From positions 115,382 through 179,381 of the IMG/VR virus record IMGVR_UViG_3300044716_000883: 64,000 nucleotides of DNA; one strand, 5' to 3'. The notes beneath the pieces are model-generated. The model was not told the DNA's origin, did not search any database, and saw only the letters and a list, made by a program, of their open reading frames with translations. Shown here in pieces: positions 13,805-23,574 of the stretch. The stretch comes from a virus. Numbering within the stretch: the stretch's first letter is position 1; each line of letters starts with the position of its first letter. Position numbers and translations under genes: made by a program.

Positions 13805-15688
13805 ATGGCAAATGAATTTGTAGCCCGCAATGGCCTCATTGCACTTGATAATTCCACTATAAGTGGTTCTTTAAATGTAATTAATAATATTACTGGTTCT
13901 AACGCTTTGTTCACCGGTACTATTACGGCACAAACATTATTAGTCCAAGATATTACTTCCTCAAGAGACTTTGTAACTGGATCTACCAAATTTGGTACTG
14001 TCCCTGCAAATACCCATCAATTTACTGGTTCAGTAAGTATAAGTGGAAGCCTTGCTTTTCCAACAATAGCAATAGGTACAACAGAAACTAATATAGTTGT
14101 AGCTGATGCTAGTGGTAATCTTAGATTTAGATCAAATTTAAGTTTACAGGGGACCACAGGTGCAACAGGCGCTCAAGGAACTACAGGTGCCACTGGTGCA
14201 CAAGGTATACAAGGTACTATAGGTGCTCAAGGTGTTCAAGGTGTTCAAGGTGTTATGGGTGATACGGGCGCGCAAGGCGCTATAGGTACTGGTACACAAG
14301 GTGCTATAGGTGCTACTGGTGCACAAGGTACACAAGGTGCCATAGGTACAACTGGTGCACAAGGTGCTATAGGCACAACTGGTGCGCAAGGCGCTATAGG
14401 AGCAACAGGTGCTCAGGGTGTTCAAGGTGTACAAGGAACTACAGGCGCTACAGGTGCCCAAGGTACTATAGGTACAACTGGCGCTCAGGGTGCCACAGGT
14501 GCAACAGGCGCTCAGGGTGTTCAAGGTGTACAAGGTATTCAAGGTGTACAAGGTCTTCAAGGTATTCAAGGTACTATTGGTACTACAGGCGCTCAAGGAA
14601 CCACAGGCGCTATCGGTGCTCAAGGTGTTCAAGGTGTTCAAGGTACTATAGGTACAACCGGTGCTCAAGGAACAATCGGTACAACAGGTGCACAAGGAAC
14701 AATTGGTACAACCGGTGCACAAGGATCAACAGGTGCTACCGGTGCACAGGGGGCAACAGGCGCTACGGGTGCACAAGGCGCAACAGGCGCTACTGGTGCA
14801 CAAGGTACAATCGGTACAACGGGAGCACAAGGTACAACCGGTACAACAGGCGCTCAAGGAACCACGGGTACAACGGGAGCACAAGGTACTATTGGTACCA
14901 CAGGTGCTCAAGGTACTGTTGGTACTACAGGCGCTCAAGGAACTACAGGTGCAACAGGAGCAAGTGCAGGAATAACTTCATATACAAACGTAGCAGATAA
15001 TAGAGTAATAACATCCGTTAACTCATCTACTATCAATGCAGAAACAAATTTAACATTTGACGGATCTACTTTAACAGTATCTGGAAATACTGCAAATAAG
15101 GTATCTGTTGTAGGTTCAGGCAGTGCAGCAAACTATACTCTATTCTCAATAGATGGAGCAAACGGACGTCTATTTGAAGTAACAGATGACTTATCAGACT
15201 CATTATTTTCAGTAAATACAGTTGCCGGTTTACCTGTAATTGAAGCATTTGCAAATAGTACAGTTAGAATGGGTCAATTTGGTCAACAAGCATTATTTGT
15301 ATCAGCTACTTCAGTTGGTATGGGTAATGAAGCCCCAGCCTATAAACTTGACGTTACAGGTACTATTCGTGCCTCAGCAGACGTTATTGCATATTCAGAT
15401 GCTCGTGTCAAAACAGATGTTATTACAATTGAAAATGCACTTGATAAAGTAAAAGCATTACGTGGTGTAACATATATTCGTGTAGATACAGAAGATAAGT
15501 CTCGTAAAATGGGTGTAATTGCTCAAGAAACTGAAAAAGTATTACCTGAAGTAGTACAACAAGATGAGAAGGGTAGATATAGCGTTGCGTATGGTAACAT
15601 AGTTGGTGTATTAATTGAAGCAATAAAAGAACAACAATCACAGATTGATGAATTAAAAATATTAGTAAATCAATTATTAAATAAATAA
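13805..15688 (+). CDS. Collagen-like tail fibre with C-terminal S74 chaperone domain
   Basis: A 627-residue protein. Residues ~1-100 contain a module also present three times in the giant fibre ([28 protein letters not shown]). Residues ~116-388 are uninterrupted Gly-X-Y triplets (GATGAQG, GTTGAQG, GVQGVQG). Residues ~390-525 are a beta-rich knob. Residues ~528-627 match the peptidase S74 intramolecular chaperone, with the Ser-Lys pair S531 and K536 in [10 protein letters not shown], then GVIAQE and a final coiled coil. In this family the domain trimerises the fibre and then cuts itself off. It is the best folding-competent fibre in the window. Confidence 0.9.
14149..14970 (+). repeat. Collagen-like Gly-X-Y coding repeat
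   Basis: About 270 residues of perfect Gly-X-Y triplets built from 9-15 base sub-repeats such as GGTGCACAAGG. The X-Y pairs are AQ, AT, TT, TI, VQ and IQ; proline is absent. Thr and Gln probably stabilise the triple helix in place of Pro. Near-identical sub-repeats make length change by recombination likely. Confidence 0.9.
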
Positions 15689-16730: not shown

Positions 16731-17603
16731 ATGAATGTTGTATGGTGTGCTGAGCACATTCAATTTTATTCCAATCTCGAAAAAGCATTTTTGTATACTT
16801 CCATCCTAACATGGAAGCATTTTTATCCTCATCACACCACTAATTTATACTGTGATAGTCATAGTGAAGCTGTTATTAGAGATATGGGTATTATTGATCT
16901 GTGGGACAATATTAATACAGAAGTATTAAATAAAAAGCAATATACATTTAATGAAAATGCATTTTGGGCTTCATCAAAATTAAAGGTTATAAATGAACTT
17001 ACAGCTCCGTTTGTTGTAGTAGATTTAGATTTATTTATCAAACAAAAATTTATTCCTGAAGATTATTGGCGGCAAGATATTATTGGTAACTTTATGGAAA
17101 TAACTTCTCATCATTACCCAGAACCATATAAAATTAAAAAATACATGGATCTACCTGAATATGATTGGGATGATAAAGCTATTAATGTTGCATTTTTATA
17201 TATCAATAATGAAAAGTTAAGGGCGGAATATGCTCAAACTGCTCTAGAGTGGATGACTACTATGACAGAAAAAGGAGGCGATATTAACGGCCTTAATATG
17301 GTTTTTTGTGAACAAAAATTATTATGGCAATTAGTAAAACAACATAATCTAAACCATAAATTTTTATTTAATGAAACATTAGTATGTTGGAAAGATCAAT
17401 GGGTCGAAAATAATTTAGGTATATTCAATAACAAAAATCAATATAACTACGCTGTTCATTTTGGTCCTGGTAAAAGAACAACATTTGATAAAAGCAACCC
17501 ACATTGGGAATTGTGTACTCAAAATATATTAGAAACATTTTTTAAGTATTTTCCTCATTTAAGTATAAACGTATCAAATCTATTAGAAAAAGGCCATGTT
17601 TAA
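16731..17603 (+). CDS. Probable GT-A type glycosyltransferase
   Basis: A 290-residue protein that opens the island. Around residues 89-97 it has hydrophobic residues leading to an acidic motif (APFVVVDLDLFI), typical of the metal/nucleotide-sugar site of GT-A folds. Upstream is a YTSILTWKHFYPHHTTNLYCDS segment like the start of a nucleotide-sugar binding fold. It resembles uncharacterised Bacteroidota proteins annotated as glycosyltransferase-like, but the sugar and acceptor are unknown. It overlaps the next gene by 8 bases. Confidence 0.5.
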   Translation: MNVVWCAEHIQFYSNLEKAFLYTSILTWKHFYPHHTTNLYCDSHSEAVIRDMGIIDLWDNINTEVLNKKQYTFNENAFWASSKLKVINELTAPFVVVDLDLFIKQKFIPEDYWRQDIIGNFMEITSHHYPEPYKIKKYMDLPEYDWDDKAINVAFLYINNEKLRAEYAQTALEWMTTMTEKGGDINGLNMVFCEQKLLWQLVKQHNLNHKFLFNETLVCWKDQWVENNLGIFNNKNQYNYAVHFGPGKRTTFDKSNPHWELCTQNILETFFKYFPHLSINVSNLLEKGHV

Positions 17604-18318
17604 TAAAAAATATATAAAATCCCACTTAACCAATAATGCAACCACACCAGTACCTTACAGATGGACACATGGTGCTACTGATCTTCATTTAGGAGACGGA
17701 TTAATAGTTTACTCTATTATACAACACATGAGAGCCAAAAACTGTGTTTGTATTGGATCAGGAGGGGGATACATTCCTAGATTGATGACCCAAGCTAGAA
17801 GAGATCTATATGATCAAGGTATATTTGAAGGAAACAATGAATATAATTGGGGAGATATAGGAGCAACCTATGTAGTTGATGCTTGTAACGGAATAGGAGG
17901 ACCAACTGATTTAGAAAATGAACAATCTTTCTATAGAACTAATTTCTACCCTCGACTTATCAAATCAACCTCAGAAAAAGCATACTATGACTTTTTTGTA
18001 CTACAAGATATTAAAATAGATGTTTTATTTATTGATGGTGATCATTCATATGAAGGTGTTAAGTTAGATTTTGAATTATACTCTAAAATATTATCACCTA
18101 GAGGTATCATACTAATACATGACACTGATGGTGAGTATGAAGAATCATTAATTGTTTCAGAAGATGCTAAAAAAGATCATCATCGTTTTGATGGTCCTTC
18201 CCGTTTAGTTAAAGAACTTCAACAAAATCCTGAATGGAATTTGGTAAATTTATTTAATTTTCGTATATTGAGTGATAAACCATCATCAAGCGGTATAACT
18301 ATAGTTAATAGAAAATGA
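17596..18318 (+). CDS. Class I SAM-dependent methyltransferase
   Basis: A 240-residue protein with a Rossmann methyltransferase pattern. Motif I is CVCIGSGGGYIPRL (~residues 51-64), and a later strand reads VLFIDGDHSYEGVKLDFELY followed by SPRGIILIHDTDG, which is characteristic of the Methyltransf_24 type. The IDGDHSY motif commonly accompanies sugar O-methyltransferases. It overlaps the genes on both sides by a few bases, so the three genes 16731-19154 are probably translated together. The substrate may be a glycan (inference). Confidence 0.75.
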   Translation: MFNKKYIKSHLTNNATTPVPYRWTHGATDLHLGDGLIVYSIIQHMRAKNCVCIGSGGGYIPRLMTQARRDLYDQGIFEGNNEYNWGDIGATYVVDACNGIGGPTDLENEQSFYRTNFYPRLIKSTSEKAYYDFFVLQDIKIDVLFIDGDHSYEGVKLDFELYSKILSPRGIILIHDTDGEYEESLIVSEDAKKDHHRFDGPSRLVKELQQNPEWNLVNLFNFRILSDKPSSSGITIVNRK

Positions 18319-19154
18319 TAAGATTAGTTACAGTAACAGGTTCTCGTACCAATACACTTTGGCATATGCTAAGTTATTATAAAGACTTAGTTGATGAAAT
18401 ATACGTTGTTGTATATGAATGGGAAGGATTTAGTACATACGATGATGTATTATCTATTACAAAACAATTCCCAAACGTTCGTATTGTAGATAGAGTAGTA
18501 GCAGAAAAATACAATTGGGAAACCGTTACTGCCTTATACAATAAAACAAAAATGCTACACCCTAATGATTGGTGGGTCGTTTCAGACGATGATGAATTTC
18601 ATGTATATTCAAAAGATTTAAGAGAAATTATAGCAGATTGTGATACAAATGGGTGGGATGTAGTACGGGGTGGGTTTATTGATAGAATAGGCAAAAACGG
18701 AACATTTCCTGAAATAACCAATGACGAAGATATATTTAAACAATTCCCTTTAGCTGGATTTTTTAGATACCCCTTAAGCGGTGCTTGTCCAAATAAAGTT
18801 TGTATATTGAAGGGTTATATAGAAATAACACCAGGACAACACTATGCAAAAATAGATGGACATACAACATGGAAATGGCAAGGATGGAATCATCCATTAA
18901 TTGCTCCTGTTCGTGGGTATAATGTTCAAGTTCATCATTTTAAATGGGATAATACATGTGTAGAAAGAATAAAAGCAGTAGCTAATATCAAACAATTATA
19001 CTCATATTCAGATGAATATAAAAAAATGTATCAGGCATTAAGAAGTAATAACTTTGAAATTGATATTACGGATAGTAGATTTATGATTGAAGAAGTTGGT
19101 ATTTGGGGATATAATCAATGGGACAAATTATTTAATATAATATTATCAATATGA
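18315..19154 (+). CDS. Glycosyltransferase-like protein (GT-A, SDDDEF motif)
   Basis: A 279-residue protein. It begins with a strand and loop (MIRLVTVTGSRTNTLWHMLSYY) and has a clear acidic motif in WWVVSDDDEFHVY (~residues 90-102), fitting the DxD-type site of GT2/GT92-like enzymes. Later HHFKWD and WKWQGW segments are candidates for the acceptor side. The start overlaps the methyltransferase stop and the end overlaps the small gene that follows. The sugar specificity cannot be read from the sequence. Confidence 0.6.
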   Translation: MIRLVTVTGSRTNTLWHMLSYYKDLVDEIYVVVYEWEGFSTYDDVLSITKQFPNVRIVDRVVAEKYNWETVTALYNKTKMLHPNDWWVVSDDDEFHVYSKDLREIIADCDTNGWDVVRGGFIDRIGKNGTFPEITNDEDIFKQFPLAGFFRYPLSGACPNKVCILKGYIEITPGQHYAKIDGHTTWKWQGWNHPLIAPVRGYNVQVHHFKWDNTCVERIKAVANIKQLYSYSDEYKKMYQALRSNNFEIDITDSRFMIEEVGIWGYNQWDKLFNIILSI

Positions 19155-19348
19155 CACAAGAAGAAAAAGAAAAAGAACAATTAGTTCTTGAACAACGTAA
19201 AGTTAAAGCATTAGAAAAAATTGCCACTACGTTAGACGCACTTACATGTTGGTTTGAAGAAATTGACAAAGATGAGTGGAGTGATAGGATTCAATTCTAC
19301 CTATCAGAATTTCATGAAGCCTCTGTAAAGAAGGAAGATAGTGAATAA
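19151..19348 (+). CDS. Small charged helical protein
   Basis: A 65-residue protein, strongly charged (TQEEKEKEQLVLEQRKVKALEKIA), then ALTCWFEEIDKDEW. It looks like a single long helix with a short tail. It overlaps the genes on both sides by 4 and 8 bases, so it belongs to the glycosyltransferase operon and may help complex assembly. The function is not recognised. Confidence 0.6.
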   Translation: MTQEEKEKEQLVLEQRKVKALEKIATTLDALTCWFEEIDKDEWSDRIQFYLSEFHEASVKKEDSE

Positions 19349-20636
19349 ACTGGGTGTAATAGTACCTTATAGGAATAGATATGAACAATTAACTGCGTTC
19401 AAAGAATCTATTACAAAGTATCTTGAATCCAAAAACATAAACTTTGAATTAATTATAGTTGAGCAAGATAATGCTAAACTTTTTAATAGAGGTATGTTAC
19501 TTAACATTGGATTTAAGTATGCTAAGAAACTTAAATGCAATTATGTTGTACTCCATGATGTGGATATGCTACCAATTGGTGTAGACTATTCTTATTCAGA
19601 TACACCTATACACTTAGCTACCGATAATATTCCATTTGAATCCTATTTCGGTGGTATTACATTATTCCCATCAGAATTATTTGAAAAAATAAATGGATTT
19701 TCTAATTTATATTGGGGTTGGGGATTTGAAGATGATGATTTACGATATAGATGTATAAAAAATAATATCCCATTCCAGAATATTATAGCTGATACATTTA
19801 CAAACGAGAAACTACCCATTTTTAATGGGATTGATGCCTATGCAACTATACCAAACGTTATAAATTATAATAGAAATTTTAAAATAGAATTAGATATTAA
19901 TTTAGATAGAGTCATTTATAATGTAGAAACACAATTTGATGAGTTTCCTATACTAACCATAGAGGGATATGATTTTAAGCTTTTCTATAATTCTTTTAAT
20001 AGATTTTATCTACAACTTTTTGATAAAAAGGGTAACTATTATGATGCACATTCAGACATTGTAACAACATCAAATAATAAAATAAAAATAGAATATAATA
20101 AAACTGATAAAACAATTATTTTTATAGTAAATGGTGTTCAAAATATTATTCAACTTTCAAATTATATACATAATTACTCTAACATAGATAATATAATAAT
20201 TGGTTCGGATAACATAAAAGAAAACTTTTTTAAAGGAACTATAAATGAATTTTTATTGAAAGAAAATGATGATGTAAAAATACATTATAAAAACTATAAT
20301 ATCACTAAATATAAATTTACTGACATTTCAGATAATAAAACTGATGGTAAATTTTTTAAAGTTTATTTAGATTATTTTAAACCATTTGTAAATCACTATT
20401 CATATATACCATTTAGACGAAGTAGTAAACTTTTAAAATTGGAACATGAAGATTGTGGATTTAACAATGGTAGATGGCAGGATGATAACAGTAGGTGGAA
20501 TCAATTGAGATATAACAATGAAGTACAATTAGGACATCACGATGGTATTGATGATGGGTTAACTACTTGTGTAGATTATAAAGTGTATAGCAAAATAAAA
20601 GATAATAAAATAACTCATTTAAATGTAGGAATATGA
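19341..20636 (+). CDS. GT7-type galactosyltransferase-like enzyme with inserted LamG-like domain
   Basis: A 431-residue protein with a GTG start, preceded by an AAGGAAG ribosome-site-like run. Residues 1-~150 carry the beta-1,4-galactosyltransferase pattern: VIVPYRNR, FNRG, the metal site HDVDMLP (D73, D75) and the donor/acceptor motif YWGWGFEDDD (124-133). Residues ~155-345 look like a LamG jelly-roll (NFKIELDINLD, FIVNGVQN, IIIGSDNIKENFFKGTINEFLL). Residues ~350-431 return to a GT7-like C-terminal part (LEHEDCGFNNGRWQDD, DGIDDGLTTCVDYKV). It is thus a lectin-like domain placed inside a transferase. It overlaps both neighbours. Confidence 0.75.
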   Translation: MNKLGVIVPYRNRYEQLTAFKESITKYLESKNINFELIIVEQDNAKLFNRGMLLNIGFKYAKKLKCNYVVLHDVDMLPIGVDYSYSDTPIHLATDNIPFESYFGGITLFPSELFEKINGFSNLYWGWGFEDDDLRYRCIKNNIPFQNIIADTFTNEKLPIFNGIDAYATIPNVINYNRNFKIELDINLDRVIYNVETQFDEFPILTIEGYDFKLFYNSFNRFYLQLFDKKGNYYDAHSDIVTTSNNKIKIEYNKTDKTIIFIVNGVQNIIQLSNYIHNYSNIDNIIIGSDNIKENFFKGTINEFLLKENDDVKIHYKNYNITKYKFTDISDNKTDGKFFKVYLDYFKPFVNHYSYIPFRRSSKLLKLEHEDCGFNNGRWQDDNSRWNQLRYNNEVQLGHHDGIDDGLTTCVDYKVYSKIKDNKITHLNVGI

Positions 20637-22069
20637 AACTAGGAGTATGTGTGCCTTATAGAAATAGAGAAGCACATTTAAAAGAATTTGTACCTCGCGT
20701 AGGAAAATTTTTAGAAGAAAGAGGCATTGACTACTGCATGTATTTTGGCCATCAGGTAGATGACAAATTATTTAACAGAGGTGCTATGAAAAACATAGCA
20801 GCTAAACATGCTTTTGAGGATGGATGTGATTATATTGTATGGCACGATATTGATATGATCCCTGTAGATGATCATTGTGATTATTCTTTCCCTAAAGACA
20901 ATCCACGACATATAGCAGTTAATATTTCTAAACACAATTACCATTTAAAGTATGAAGATTACTTTGGTGGTGCTGTTATATTCTCAAAAGAACAAGTAGA
21001 AAAAACCAATGGTTATTCTAATGATTATTGGGATTGGGGTATGGAGGATGATGATTTGTTTTGGAGGTGCATATATGAAGGATATGCTAACATTAGTTAT
21101 CTAGATTATAAAGATAAAACTAATACTTATTTAAGATTTAATGGGTATGATTCTCATGTTAAAGTCCCATCAAGTCCTACTTTAAAAGACCTAACACATC
21201 GATCCCACACCATATCAATATTAGTTAGAGCCTTCCAGCAACAAGATAAAATGTCTATTTACTTGATAGGATCTGATAATAAACAATTTGTTGAATACCC
21301 TATATTAAGAAGACCAGGATATGACTATAGTATTTCTTATAATAATTCTAGAGCATATACTTCAATGTTATGGAATACATTTAATAAACCTTACTATCAA
21401 TGGATGAAACGCTTTGAAAACCAATGGAGTTGGGTAACAATAGCTACCGATGCTTATGAGAAAAAAATTCATGTCTATATGAATGGAGTTGAATCACAAT
21501 CATCATCAGGCACAGGTACTGATTCTCCAGCTATCTATGAAGGTAATTTAAAACGTTACATGGATATGGATTATTATTTAGGTACATCCCCCTTTTTGGG
21601 AGATGATAATCCTGGAAAATATTTTAAAGGAGACATGTCTAAACTAATGATGTGGGATAGGTGTTTGAGCGAAGAAGAAATATTATCTTCATTTAATAAT
21701 ACGATAGATGGTTTAGTACTTGACTATGATTTTAGTCATGACAAACTATTAAAGGATCAAACAGGAAATAATAATAATGGCTTAGTAACAAGCTGCTTTA
21801 AACTAGAAGAAGAAATAAAAGTACCAAACACAGTTGTCCCTTATAGAACACCGGGCCGTATGGATTGTTTAGAACATCCTGATGAAGGATTTCATGAAGG
21901 ATCTTGGATAAAAGGTAAAACAACGGCTCGTAATGAGGAAAGATTTATAATGCAAATGCAACAAGGTACAATTGATTATAAAAATGATGGTATGAATACT
22001 TTAAAATATACACTAGTAAATGTTGAAGAAATAACACCAAAAGCTAAATTAATTAACGTAGTGTTGTAA
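20633..22069 (+). CDS. Second GT7-type enzyme with inserted LamG-like domain (paralogue)
   Basis: A 478-residue paralogue of the previous gene, which it overlaps by 4 bases. It has CVPYRNREAHL, WHDIDMIP (D72, D74) and YWDWGMEDDD (132-141). The insert at ~155-385 is a clearer LamG domain: FNGYDSHVKVP, TISILVRAFQ, WSWVTIATD, IHVYMNGVE, YYLGTSPFLG and the closing MMWDRCLSEEEILSSFN, which matches the LamG ends in the fibre genes. The C-terminal part (RMDCLEHPDEGFHEGSW, KNDGMNTLKYTLV) completes the GT7 core. Probable sugar transfer to a glycan that the LamG domain also grips. Confidence 0.8.
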   Translation: MKLGVCVPYRNREAHLKEFVPRVGKFLEERGIDYCMYFGHQVDDKLFNRGAMKNIAAKHAFEDGCDYIVWHDIDMIPVDDHCDYSFPKDNPRHIAVNISKHNYHLKYEDYFGGAVIFSKEQVEKTNGYSNDYWDWGMEDDDLFWRCIYEGYANISYLDYKDKTNTYLRFNGYDSHVKVPSSPTLKDLTHRSHTISILVRAFQQQDKMSIYLIGSDNKQFVEYPILRRPGYDYSISYNNSRAYTSMLWNTFNKPYYQWMKRFENQWSWVTIATDAYEKKIHVYMNGVESQSSSGTGTDSPAIYEGNLKRYMDMDYYLGTSPFLGDDNPGKYFKGDMSKLMMWDRCLSEEEILSSFNNTIDGLVLDYDFSHDKLLKDQTGNNNNGLVTSCFKLEEEIKVPNTVVPYRTPGRMDCLEHPDEGFHEGSWIKGKTTARNEERFIMQMQQGTIDYKNDGMNTLKYTLVNVEEITPKAKLINVVL

Positions 22070-22095: not shown

Positions 22096-23574
22096 ATGTC
22101 AGAAGAATTAAGGTTATGGAGGGATAAAAATCTCAACAAAGTTAGTAAAAGCTTTTGTGCCGCCAAATGGTTAAATGCTAGTTTGCACCTAGGCCATGGA
22201 TTTACAAATTCATGCCATTTACCTCTACCCCACCCTGTTGATTTAGAAGAAATCAAGAAAAATCCATCAGCACTTCATAATACTCAGCATAAGAAAGAAA
22301 TGAGAAAAATGATGCTAAAAGGTGAACGTCCCGCTGAATGTTCATATTGTTGGAAAATTGAGGACATAGGTAGAGATAATATTTCGGATCGTGTTTATAA
22401 GAGTAAAATTTATTCTAAAGAAGATCTTAATCGTATTGCAAAAACTCCATTCCATGAGGATGTGAATTTAAAAACTGTAGAAATTAGCTTTGACAGAACA
22501 TGTACATTTGCTTGTTCTTATTGTAATGCTGGTTATAGTACAACATGGGGTAAGGAAATTAATAAATTTGGACCCTATCAGAAATTTAAAACAGTTTCAG
22601 CAGAAGCATACCAAAATGATGGGTCATGGGCCGACAAGTATGGTAAACATAGTCAGTTTAATCCTTATGTTGAAGCATTTTTAGCTTGGTGGCCTGAGTT
22701 ATCTAAAGAGTTACAAGAAGTAAGAATTACAGGTGGTGAACCAAGTGCTAGTCATAATTTTTGGAACTTTATTGAAACTCTAAAGCAATATCCCGCTGAA
22801 AATATGGCGTTGGCTGTTAACTCTAATCTAGGAATGGATCAGAAAACTCTAGAGAGAATGATCCAAATGACTAAAGATATTAAAATTAAAGAATTTGACT
22901 TATATACAAGCAATGAAGCTGTAGGAGCTCATGCTGAATATATTCGTGATGGATTAAAATATGATGTATGGAGACAAAATCTGGTAACATTTATTGAAAA
23001 TGCCAAATTTAGATCCGTTACTATAATGATGACTATTAATAGCCTATGCCTATTCAGTATAGATGAATTTTTAGATGACATGTTAGTGCTGAAAGAAAAA
23101 TACGGACCTAACAGACCAAATGTAGATTTAAATATTTTACGTTGGCCTGGATTTATGTCTCCTTTAGCTTTACCTGATGATATTAAAAAATCACTTCATA
23201 CTAGATTAAAAAGATGGTACAATAAAAATAAAAAGAATCCATTATTTAGTACAGGGGAAAAAGCTCAAATTGAACGTTTAATAGATTATATTGAAGTAGT
23301 TCAAAAAGGACATAACTATACTGAAGATGATAAAAGTTTATTATTGCATGATTTTAAATCATTTTATAAACAATATGATTTTAGACGTGGTAAAGACTTT
23401 AAAATGACATTCCCTGAATTAGCTGAATGGTATGATACTTTGGTTGTAGACCAAGACATACCATCAGTTGAAATGAAAGATGGATCTATAACTCACTTTG
23501 AAAAAGGTGTCTATATACCACCCCCAGGAACAATACCACCCCCAGAATTAAAACTACCACCCAAATTAATATAA
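22096..23574 (+). CDS. Twitch-type radical SAM protein
   Basis: A 492-residue protein. The radical SAM cluster motif CxxxCxxC is C136, C140, C143 in RTCTFACSYCNAG, followed by a GGEPSAS element (ITGGEPSAS) for SAM binding. The N-terminal part carries further cysteines (C21, C40, C82, C85 in ECSYCWKIED), and YCNAGYSTTWGKEI is characteristic of phage twitch-domain radical SAM proteins as I know them. The C-terminus is a Pro-rich tail (PPPGTIPPPELKLPP). The reaction is unknown; in this island it could alter a sugar or a peptide. It directly abuts the epimerase gene. Confidence 0.85.
   Translation: MSEELRLWRDKNLNKVSKSFCAAKWLNASLHLGHGFTNSCHLPLPHPVDLEEIKKNPSALHNTQHKKEMRKMMLKGERPAECSYCWKIEDIGRDNISDRVYKSKIYSKEDLNRIAKTPFHEDVNLKTVEISFDRTCTFACSYCNAGYSTTWGKEINKFGPYQKFKTVSAEAYQNDGSWADKYGKHSQFNPYVEAFLAWWPELSKELQEVRITGGEPSASHNFWNFIETLKQYPAENMALAVNSNLGMDQKTLERMIQMTKDIKIKEFDLYTSNEAVGAHAEYIRDGLKYDVWRQNLVTFIENAKFRSVTIMMTINSLCLFSIDEFLDDMLVLKEKYGPNRPNVDLNILRWPGFMSPLALPDDIKKSLHTRLKRWYNKNKKNPLFSTGEKAQIERLIDYIEVVQKGHNYTEDDKSLLLHDFKSFYKQYDFRRGKDFKMTFPELAEWYDTLVVDQDIPSVEMKDGSITHFEKGVYIPPPGTIPPPELKLPPKLI

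Follow-up and report, generated by a model that had tools for sequence, protein, structure and literature searches.

Two tandem phage glycosyltransferases of GT7 type with a LamG-type domain between the halves of the catalytic fold

Two adjacent phage genes, P1 and P2, encode GT7-type glycosyltransferases in which a LamG-type domain lies between the N- and C-terminal parts of the catalytic domain, an architecture that is almost certain from sequence profiles and predicted structures combined. The genes were found in a window of 64,000 nucleotides (positions 115,382 to 179,381 of IMG/VR virus record IMGVR_UViG_3300044716_000883). They belong to a family of three paralogue groups, with at least 260 distinct full-length proteins from at least 139 contigs of uncultured phages. 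This family is old and under selection.

Results

A preliminary description of the window had placed two tandem genes at 19341-22069, each beginning and ending as a GT7 enzyme and carrying a LamG jelly-roll inside the catalytic domain. Open reading frame analysis returned exactly these coordinates (Table 1), with the P2 start overlapping the P1 stop by 4 bases. Both proteins scored above the Pfam cut-offs for GT7N and GT7C (P1, E 2.4e-18 and 5.1e-17; P2, E 2e-17 and 1.2e-19) and contained the DxD and WGWG/WDWG-EDDD motifs by which their N-terminal halves had been assigned to GT7. The proposed return to GT7 at the C-terminus was confirmed by full-length alignment of the models on B4GALT1/B4GALT7 and by human B4GALT1 (6fwu_A), which matched the family profile in two colinear stretches (profile 1-150 on chain 51-203 and profile 421-470 on chain 221-269). 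Against a Laminin_G_3 cut-off of 27.6 bits, the P2 insert (248 residues) scored above, at 51.2 bits (E 2e-13), and the P1 insert (~210 residues) below, at 14.6 bits (E 0.037); the LamG call for P1 is therefore based on its match to the family profile, on the predicted structure and on the fold comparison. As modelled, the P1 insert is of LamG type by fold and family alignment, and is not a Laminin_G_3 member. Searches of PHROGs with P1 and P2 gave weak matches at most, and neither protein had a match in NCBIfam.

AlphaFold2 models of P1 (mean pLDDT 95.0, pTM 0.91) and P2 (mean pLDDT 95.4, pTM 0.91) were aligned with B4GALT1/B4GALT7 structures from first to last residue, both halves together. 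P1 residues 1..431 superposed on 4irq_B with Z 25.8 (203 aligned, 2.1 A), and P2 residues 1..478 on 1tvy_A with Z 28.1 (214 aligned, 1.9 A). Both modelled inserts were concanavalin-type beta-sandwiches, with Z of 16-22 to LamG/pentraxin chains; the middle of the P2 model matched PAPP-A (8d8o_B) with Z 21.6 (197 aligned, 2.5 A), and that of P1 matched 8i59_B with Z 17.7 and PAPP-A with Z 17.5. In the models, the N- and C-terminal halves of each protein form one GT-A fold with the LamG domain lying between them, as had been anticipated.

Table 1. Coordinates of the gene pair, its domains and neighbouring genes in the window.
Feature	Position	Strand	Evidence and details
Methyltransf_24 gene, cassette member	17596..18318	+	Pfam; relatives in 130/139 contigs
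GT2-like gene (Glyco_tranf_2_4, weak), cassette member	18315..19154	+	Pfam; relatives in 135/139 contigs
Small ORF, 65 aa	19151..19348	+	Read from sequence; overlaps both flanking genes
P1, LamG-inserted GT7 glycosyltransferase, group A	19341..20636	+	431 aa, GTG start; ORF, Pfam, model, fold
P1 GT7 N-terminal half, residues 1-147	19341..19781	+	HDVD (D73, D75); WGWGFEDDD (E130-D133)
P1 LamG-type insert, ~residues 148-358	19782..20414	+	Fold match 155-348; empty-site alignment, fold; bounds +/- a few residues
P1 GT7 C-terminal part, residues 359-431	20415..20633	+	Conserved H369 at 20445-20447
P2, LamG-inserted GT7 glycosyltransferase, group B	20633..22069	+	478 aa, ATG start; ORF, Pfam, model, fold
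P2 GT7 N-terminal half, residues 1-156	20633..21100	+	HDID (D72, D74); WDWGMEDDD (E138-D141)
P2 LamG-type insert, ~residues 157-404	21101..21844	+	Fold match 162-398; Laminin_G_3, empty-site alignment, fold
P2 GT7 C-terminal part, residues 405-478	21845..22066	+	Conserved H415 at 21875-21877
Twitch-domain radical SAM gene, cassette member	22096..23574	+	NF033640, 304 bits; relatives in 133/139 contigs

Conservation was examined across the family. Locus sets comprised the best 80 per scan, and the counts are samples skewed to near relatives. The set of 139 contigs excludes 20 loci from contigs seen twice (names matched by eye and overlap checked), which counts out of 159 loci retain; the pair L020/L119, which shares sequence and comes from different contigs, was kept. 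Among the matches listed, the insert was present in all 260 distinct full-length proteins, with an insert region of 189-259 residues. With groups assigned by nearest seed, both Asp residues of DxD, the xED Glu and the Asp after it were each found in 113/113 group A and 120/120 group B proteins, and the C-terminal His in 112/113 and 119/120, respectively. Judged by these residues, A and B are very probably active, inverting GT-A transferases of GT7 type. Group C has lost part of its catalytic residues (the xED Glu is kept in 9, the C-terminal His in 18 and DxD in 25 of 27 proteins). The third metal ligand of B4GALT1 (bovine Met344) appears to lack a fixed equivalent in the family; the position three before the C-terminal His (the P2 C412 column) is L/S/K/T in group A and Cys in group B, the alignment there being uncertain. 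A metal-binding role for the C-terminal His in GT7 is given in PMC7185993.

The insert is more divergent than the core, with mean pairwise identities of 0.30 versus 0.53 in group A and 0.46 versus 0.70 in group B. In both regions dN was far below dS, indicating purifying selection, and several residues of the group B insert, among them E221, N237, W265 and N284, were each invariant in 120/120 proteins.

The insertion point is constant in the family, after the xED helix and the next strand and ~10 residues ahead of the metal-binding His; it presumably corresponds to the base of the mobile B4GALT loop, which covers donor and acceptor when closed. Insertless GT7 relatives, which retain the GT7 residues, are known in bacteria (aquatic ones, Pelagibacteraceae genomes among them) and in other phages, and have a clean empty site. 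Their match to the family profile broke off at ~154-160 and resumed at ~405-407 in 25 of 30 bacterial loci and in 65 of the best 80 viral loci, with a median of 3 residues between break and resumption (n = 79 distinct insertless proteins). A tree of the GT7 core required two changes between insert-carrying and insertless proteins and placed some bacterial insertless GT7s among the LamG-carrying groups; one clade was not rejected (p-AU 0.388). In a quick tree of the LamG domains, in which long branches were flagged, the inserts also needed two changes, but the tree with all inserts together had a log-likelihood 8.30 higher, so that a single origin of the insert is not rejected. Given two changes in both trees and one clade rejected in neither, a single insertion event behind all LamG-carrying GT7s is possible, rather than established.

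The inserts had also been proposed to derive from domain exchange with the LamG domains of nearby fibre genes and to share a glycan target with them, for which we found no support. In every one of the 41 insert domains compared, the best match was another insert. The best match outside the family was a free LamG gene for 40 of the 41, a LamG ORF of unclear type for one and a virion/fibre-type LamG for none, in a comparison of 15 virion LamGs, a small set, with 45 free ones; six LamG ORFs that could not be typed were left out. A further LamG comparison excluded two GT7 fragments at contig edges and any domain shorter than 120 residues. On these comparisons a recent exchange with the fibre LamGs is rejected. 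Among the three fibres of the window, only fibre 3 exceeded 20 bits with the insert profile (32.2, compared with 106.0 with the virion profile). The 'WDR-LSEEEIL-FN' ending ascribed to both inserts is present in P2 and absent from P1; nor is it special to the window's fibres, as an alignment with a zebrafish pentraxin extends across it (MWDYVLSSAQI). Genes related to the LamG fibre genes of the window occurred in 4, 1 and 2 of 139 contigs (6 kb flanks), compared with 130-135 for the cassette genes. In 5 of 20 large contigs, whose records may be incomplete, every LamG_3 match lay within GT7 genes.

The gene order of the cassette is methyltransferase, GT2-like, [C], A, B, twitch radical-SAM and, often, a free LamG gene. 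These genes point to a cassette for building glycans that is conserved among large aquatic phages not yet cultured. Among the matches listed, repeats included, the order A-B was found in 118/159 loci and C-A-B in 33/159. The ATG of B overlapped the stop codon of A by 4 bases in 75 of 151 pairs and by 1 base in 46. The free LamG proteins are stand-alone (median ~248 aa) and lack GT7; their gene was found in 73 of 139 contigs, and within 3.5 kb downstream of B in 82 of 146 loci. A search of 50,697 isolate phage records found no match to P1 or P2; the LamG-split GT7 occurs in many uncultured aquatic phages and, at the sensitivity used, is absent from the compared isolates. The T4-type late promoter TATAAATA occurred 18 times in total, compared with a mean of 19.7 in shuffles; this count is not above chance, and late expression is therefore unsupported by this promoter.

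Discussion

We favour, with modest confidence, the reading that P1 and P2 are two distinct, catalytically competent GT7-type enzymes with the LamG domain as a built-in acceptor-recognition module; for the recognition role of the insert taken by itself, the chances appear evenly balanced. The LamG domain would hold the growing glycan, or a glycosylated protein, at the active site; acting after the GT2-like enzyme, A and B would attach further sugars in turn, and the methyltransferase, perhaps with the radical-SAM enzyme, would modify the product. Phage structural proteins and host glycans are the likeliest acceptors, the evidence favouring neither, and a virion target is somewhat less likely than not. 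LamG-type domains bind proteins or other ligands as well as sugars, so 'lectin' is used here as the name of a fold. The faster divergence of the insert relative to the core is as expected of a recognition surface, although relaxed constraint would also fit. Group C retains the insert despite its partly lost catalytic residues, so the value of the LamG domain need not depend on catalysis; this counts against the favoured reading. Hypervariable extensions from the GT-A core are described as setting acceptor specificity (PMC7185993).

A narrower proposal, which we consider doubtful, is that the insert permanently specifies the acceptor through a built-in connection to the catalytic loop, gating both loop closure and acceptor choice; group C would then be a lectin paralogue, partly dead, guiding the A/B pair. 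In B4GALT1 the loop closes on binding of the UDP-sugar, and in lactose synthase alpha-lactalbumin acts transiently beside the acceptor site; an insert at the base of a loop of this type would exert this effect permanently. If true, the specifier would control substrate use in a way new to GT-A enzymes.

It is also possible, at somewhat less than even likelihood, that the insert docks the transferase not on a sugar but on a particular phage protein (a fibre, a collagen-like protein or a cassette partner), as a scaffold for virion glycosylation. Consistent with this, the cassette in the window is preceded on its own strand by fibre and collagen-like/S74 genes and has a sheath gene ~17 kb downstream, many cassette loci encode a free LamG protein as candidate partner, and no polysaccharide flippase or polymerase was found among the scanned genes. 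Relatives of the collagen-like/S74 gene were, however, present within the flanks in only 38/139 contigs, and the distance from cassette to sheath varied widely (16/20 large contigs with a sheath match). Remodelling of a host surface polysaccharide during infection, for receptor masking or superinfection exclusion, seems somewhat unlikely: the scanned genes included no recognisable membrane glycosyltransferase or flippase, and no GT7 enzyme is known to initiate chains on a lipid carrier. Pointing the other way are the insertless GT7s of aquatic bacteria, including Pelagibacteraceae, and the proposal that cyanophage glycosyltransferase clusters make a diversified outer polysaccharide (PMC7824862).

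A passenger role for the insert, neutral or tied to stability and without part in recognition, would accommodate its low identity relative to the core and the GT7 residues retained by insertless relatives, but is improbable given its presence in 260/260 distinct full-length proteins, purifying selection and the group B invariants. Least probable, and very unlikely, is glycosylation of phage DNA (hypermodified bases). Phage glycosyltransferases can act on DNA (PMC12619734), but the 179 kb record, which may be incomplete, yielded no thymidylate-synthase-family gene in a search positive for control genomes and no Tet_JBP gene in one run without a positive control, and Pfam recognised no DNA-binding feature in P1 or P2.

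B4GALT1 and B4GALT7 (CAZy GT7) share with P1 and P2 both halves of the fold, DxD, WGWG-EDDD and the C-terminal His (Z 25.8-28.1), with 34-38% identity over ~150 columns of the N-terminal half; the aligned animal enzymes lack LamG, whereas P1 and P2 have ~210-248 residues inserted before the His. In GT27 polypeptide GalNAc-transferases, a lectin-fold domain also works with a GT-A catalytic domain, and that of GalNAc-T2 helps bind glycopeptide acceptors (PMC4432651). According to the same source, this lectin domain is separate and attached by a flexible linker. It lies outside the catalytic domain of enzymes from another GT family, whereas in P1 and P2 LamG sits between the GT7 halves. GnT-IVa/MGAT4A (GT54) is likewise a transferase regulated by a lectin domain (PMC9296478), but one that is C-terminal, not inserted, and in another GT family. 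In PGAP4 an insertion splits the GT-A fold and places the acceptor; as described in PMC5785973, it consists of tandem transmembrane segments (residues 262-308), with no lectin, in a eukaryotic Golgi enzyme. A literature search, mostly at the level of titles and abstracts, found no description of LamG within a GT7 enzyme. Lectin domains appended to glycosyltransferases are known; in this family the lectin-like domain is internal to the catalytic domain, at a single site, in at least 260 distinct proteins, and the occurrence of insertless and insert-carrying enzymes in one family provides a natural experiment on how GT-A enzymes gain acceptor specificity. The main text of PMC12619734, on the Moraphages, lacks the terms LamG, laminin, concanavalin and galactosyltransferase, but these jumbo phages from aquatic metagenomes are also large and have four core glycosyltransferase groups, and may be the same as, or related to, the cassette-bearing phages.

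The GT7 fold of P1 and P2 is split by a LamG-type domain

P1 and P2, the two tandem GT7-type glycosyltransferases, matched exactly the ORF positions in the preliminary description, and its order of GT7, LamG and GT7 was borne out at the sequence level. Pfam detected GT7N and GT7C in both proteins and, C-terminal to these, Laminin_G_3 in P2; the Laminin_G_3 match in P1 was sub-threshold. Human B4GALT1 aligned with the N half of P2 (E 4e-32). A profile built from 129 family members (A1) matched B4GALT1 in two colinear stretches, with a gap of ~17 chain residues against 270 profile positions, and this gap region separately matched an S-layer domain protein, a sialidase and pentraxins.

Structure prediction, proposed as a check in that description, gave the same picture. 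AlphaFold2 models, made with the family alignment, were compared with known folds using VIA-align. The P2 model (mean pLDDT 95.4, pTM 0.91; residues 1..478) matched B4GALT1 (1tvy_A) with Z 28.1 over 214 aligned residues at 1.9 A, and the P1 model (95.0, 0.91) gave Z 25.8 on 4irq_B and 1tvy_A. The predicted middles matched LamG/pentraxin folds: PAPP-A (8d8o_B, Z 21.6), 4dqa (21.0) and pentraxins (17-19) for P2; 8i59_B (17.7), PAPP-A (17.5) and laminin LG5 (1qu0_A, 16.4) for P1. The best 50 of 292 BFVD matches (E <= 0.001; top E 1e-12) were single-domain by description and score, and none had both domains.

The insert is a constant feature of the family

Viral contigs were scanned twice, giving 170 and 178 relatives; the best 80 of each scan were taken. 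In these loci 354 ORFs matched P1 or P2, of which 347 were full length (260 distinct) and seven were partial, cut short at contig edges or, for L127, belonging to a broken frame. The insert was present in all 260 distinct proteins, its region spanning 189-259 residues. They split into groups A (P1-like, n=113), B (P2-like, n=120) and C (n=27). Groups A and B have near-invariant catalytic residues; group C has lost part of them, the xED Glu being retained in 9/27 and the FNRG Arg replaced by Tyr in 27/27; on sequence, group C is perhaps a pseudoenzyme.

Among 139 uncultured-phage contigs encoding family members, 99 contained A and B, five A only and three B only; the other 32 contained A, B and C, a third LamG-GT7 paralogue lying upstream of A. 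Six of the eight single-copy contigs were truncated at contig ends (L119, L139, L141, L142, L019, L056), and L109 and L010 had one copy inside the stretch covered. The ATG of B overlapped the stop codon of A by 4 or 1 bases in 121/151 A-B pairs.

Bacterial genomes contained at least 30 loci encoding relatives; among those 30, 25 had GT7s without the insert (insertless), three had it (L162, L163, L164, all from MAG contigs), one was a fragment (L189) and one was distant (L191). With a Pelagibacteraceae GT7 as query, 65 of the 80 viral loci listed were insertless and 15 had the insert. On 79 distinct insertless proteins the family profile broke at ~154-160 and resumed at ~405-407; the median spacing between the two parts was 3 residues. 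By alignment, the join is P1 N147/R359 and P2 S156/R405, ~10 residues before H369/H415. Relative to the published GT-A scheme (PMC7185993) the site lies C-terminal to the xED helix and N-terminal to the C-His, where we would place the beginning of the third hypervariable region. Many viral contigs (L192-L254) encode an insertless GT7 of ~250 aa, from a phage GT7 lineage different from the LamG family.

Ratios of dN to dS against the nearest relative, L003, were ~0.04 (core) and ~0.06 (insert) for P2, and ~0.07 and ~0.22 for P1. Purifying selection acts on both parts, more weakly on the insert.

The inserts are not closely tied to the fibre LamGs

Laminin_G_3 occurs at five places in the whole record, the three fibres and the two inserts, and a tie between them had been suggested. 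The comparisons do not support it. For 41/41 compared inserts the nearest match was another insert, followed in 40/41 by a free (stand-alone) LamG, and free LamGs were closer to inserts than fibre LamGs were. In 5/20 large contigs (G009, G010, G014, G019, G020) LamG_3 matches (E <= 1e-3) were confined to GT7 genes; a LamG fibre is therefore not an obligatory partner. Virion-type LamGs (n=15: three window fibres and 12 others) were nearest to each other in 11/15 and to unassigned LamG ORFs in 4/15. Outside their own class, 9/15 were nearest to an insert, so that a distant common origin is possible. Tandem two-LamG ORFs also occur near GT7 genes (Table).

Predicted function

Architecture, fold, insertion site and conservation are shown by sequences and models. 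A and B very probably transfer sugar, because their GT7 motifs are intact. The insert would recognise the acceptor of the transferase, a role to which we give an even chance in view of where it sits, how much faster it evolves and what has been described in other GTs for lectin domains (PMC4432651, PMC9296478) and hypervariable extensions (PMC7185993). Candidate targets are a virion protein, a host glycan or, least likely, DNA. P1 and P2 had no match at E <= 1e-5 among 50,697 isolate-phage records, and the literature listings searched contained no description of LamG within a GT7 enzyme. The GT-A fold is likewise split in PGAP4 and lectin-aided transferases are already known; the LamG-split GT7 thus extends known kinds.

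Neighbouring genes

Relatives of window genes near the pair were Methyltransf_24 (130/139 contigs), GT2-like (135), twitch radical-SAM (133) and collagen-like/S74 (38); relatives of the three LamG fibres were near it in 4, 1 and 2 of 139. The collagen-like/S74 protein is a candidate O-glycosylation substrate. A free LamG ORF (median 248 aa) lay <=3.5 kb downstream of B in 82/146 loci; the window, without a free LamG, has an epimerase in its place. From 16731 to 22069 each gene start overlaps the preceding gene's end, which fits one operon. TATTTATA (minus strand: TATAAATA) is found 4-60 bases ahead of several plus-strand genes in the window. Its total count is no higher than chance, but 7/15 minus-strand matches have such positions; it may be a promoter or leader motif of the phage.

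Table. Positions of features in the window and in related loci
Feature	Position	Remark
Group C	L062:2474-3970	
Group C	L026:1965-3470	
Group C	L054:2750-4255	
Free LamG gene	L054:8844-9683	~248 aa, downstream of radical-SAM gene
Free LamG gene	L082:10807-11481	as above
Free LamG gene	L036:8937-9671	as above
Tandem two-LamG ORF	G016 (contig of L271) 99441-100688	
Tandem two-LamG ORF	L269:7831-10476	
Small ORF	window 19151-19348	65 aa; overlaps GT2-like gene at its stop and P1 at its GTG start
Thr-rich collagen-like protein	window 13805-15688	C-terminal Peptidase_S74 chaperone domain; near glycosyltransferases
TATTTATA sites	window 1337, 13404, 13757, 41772, 42310, 43348, 45593
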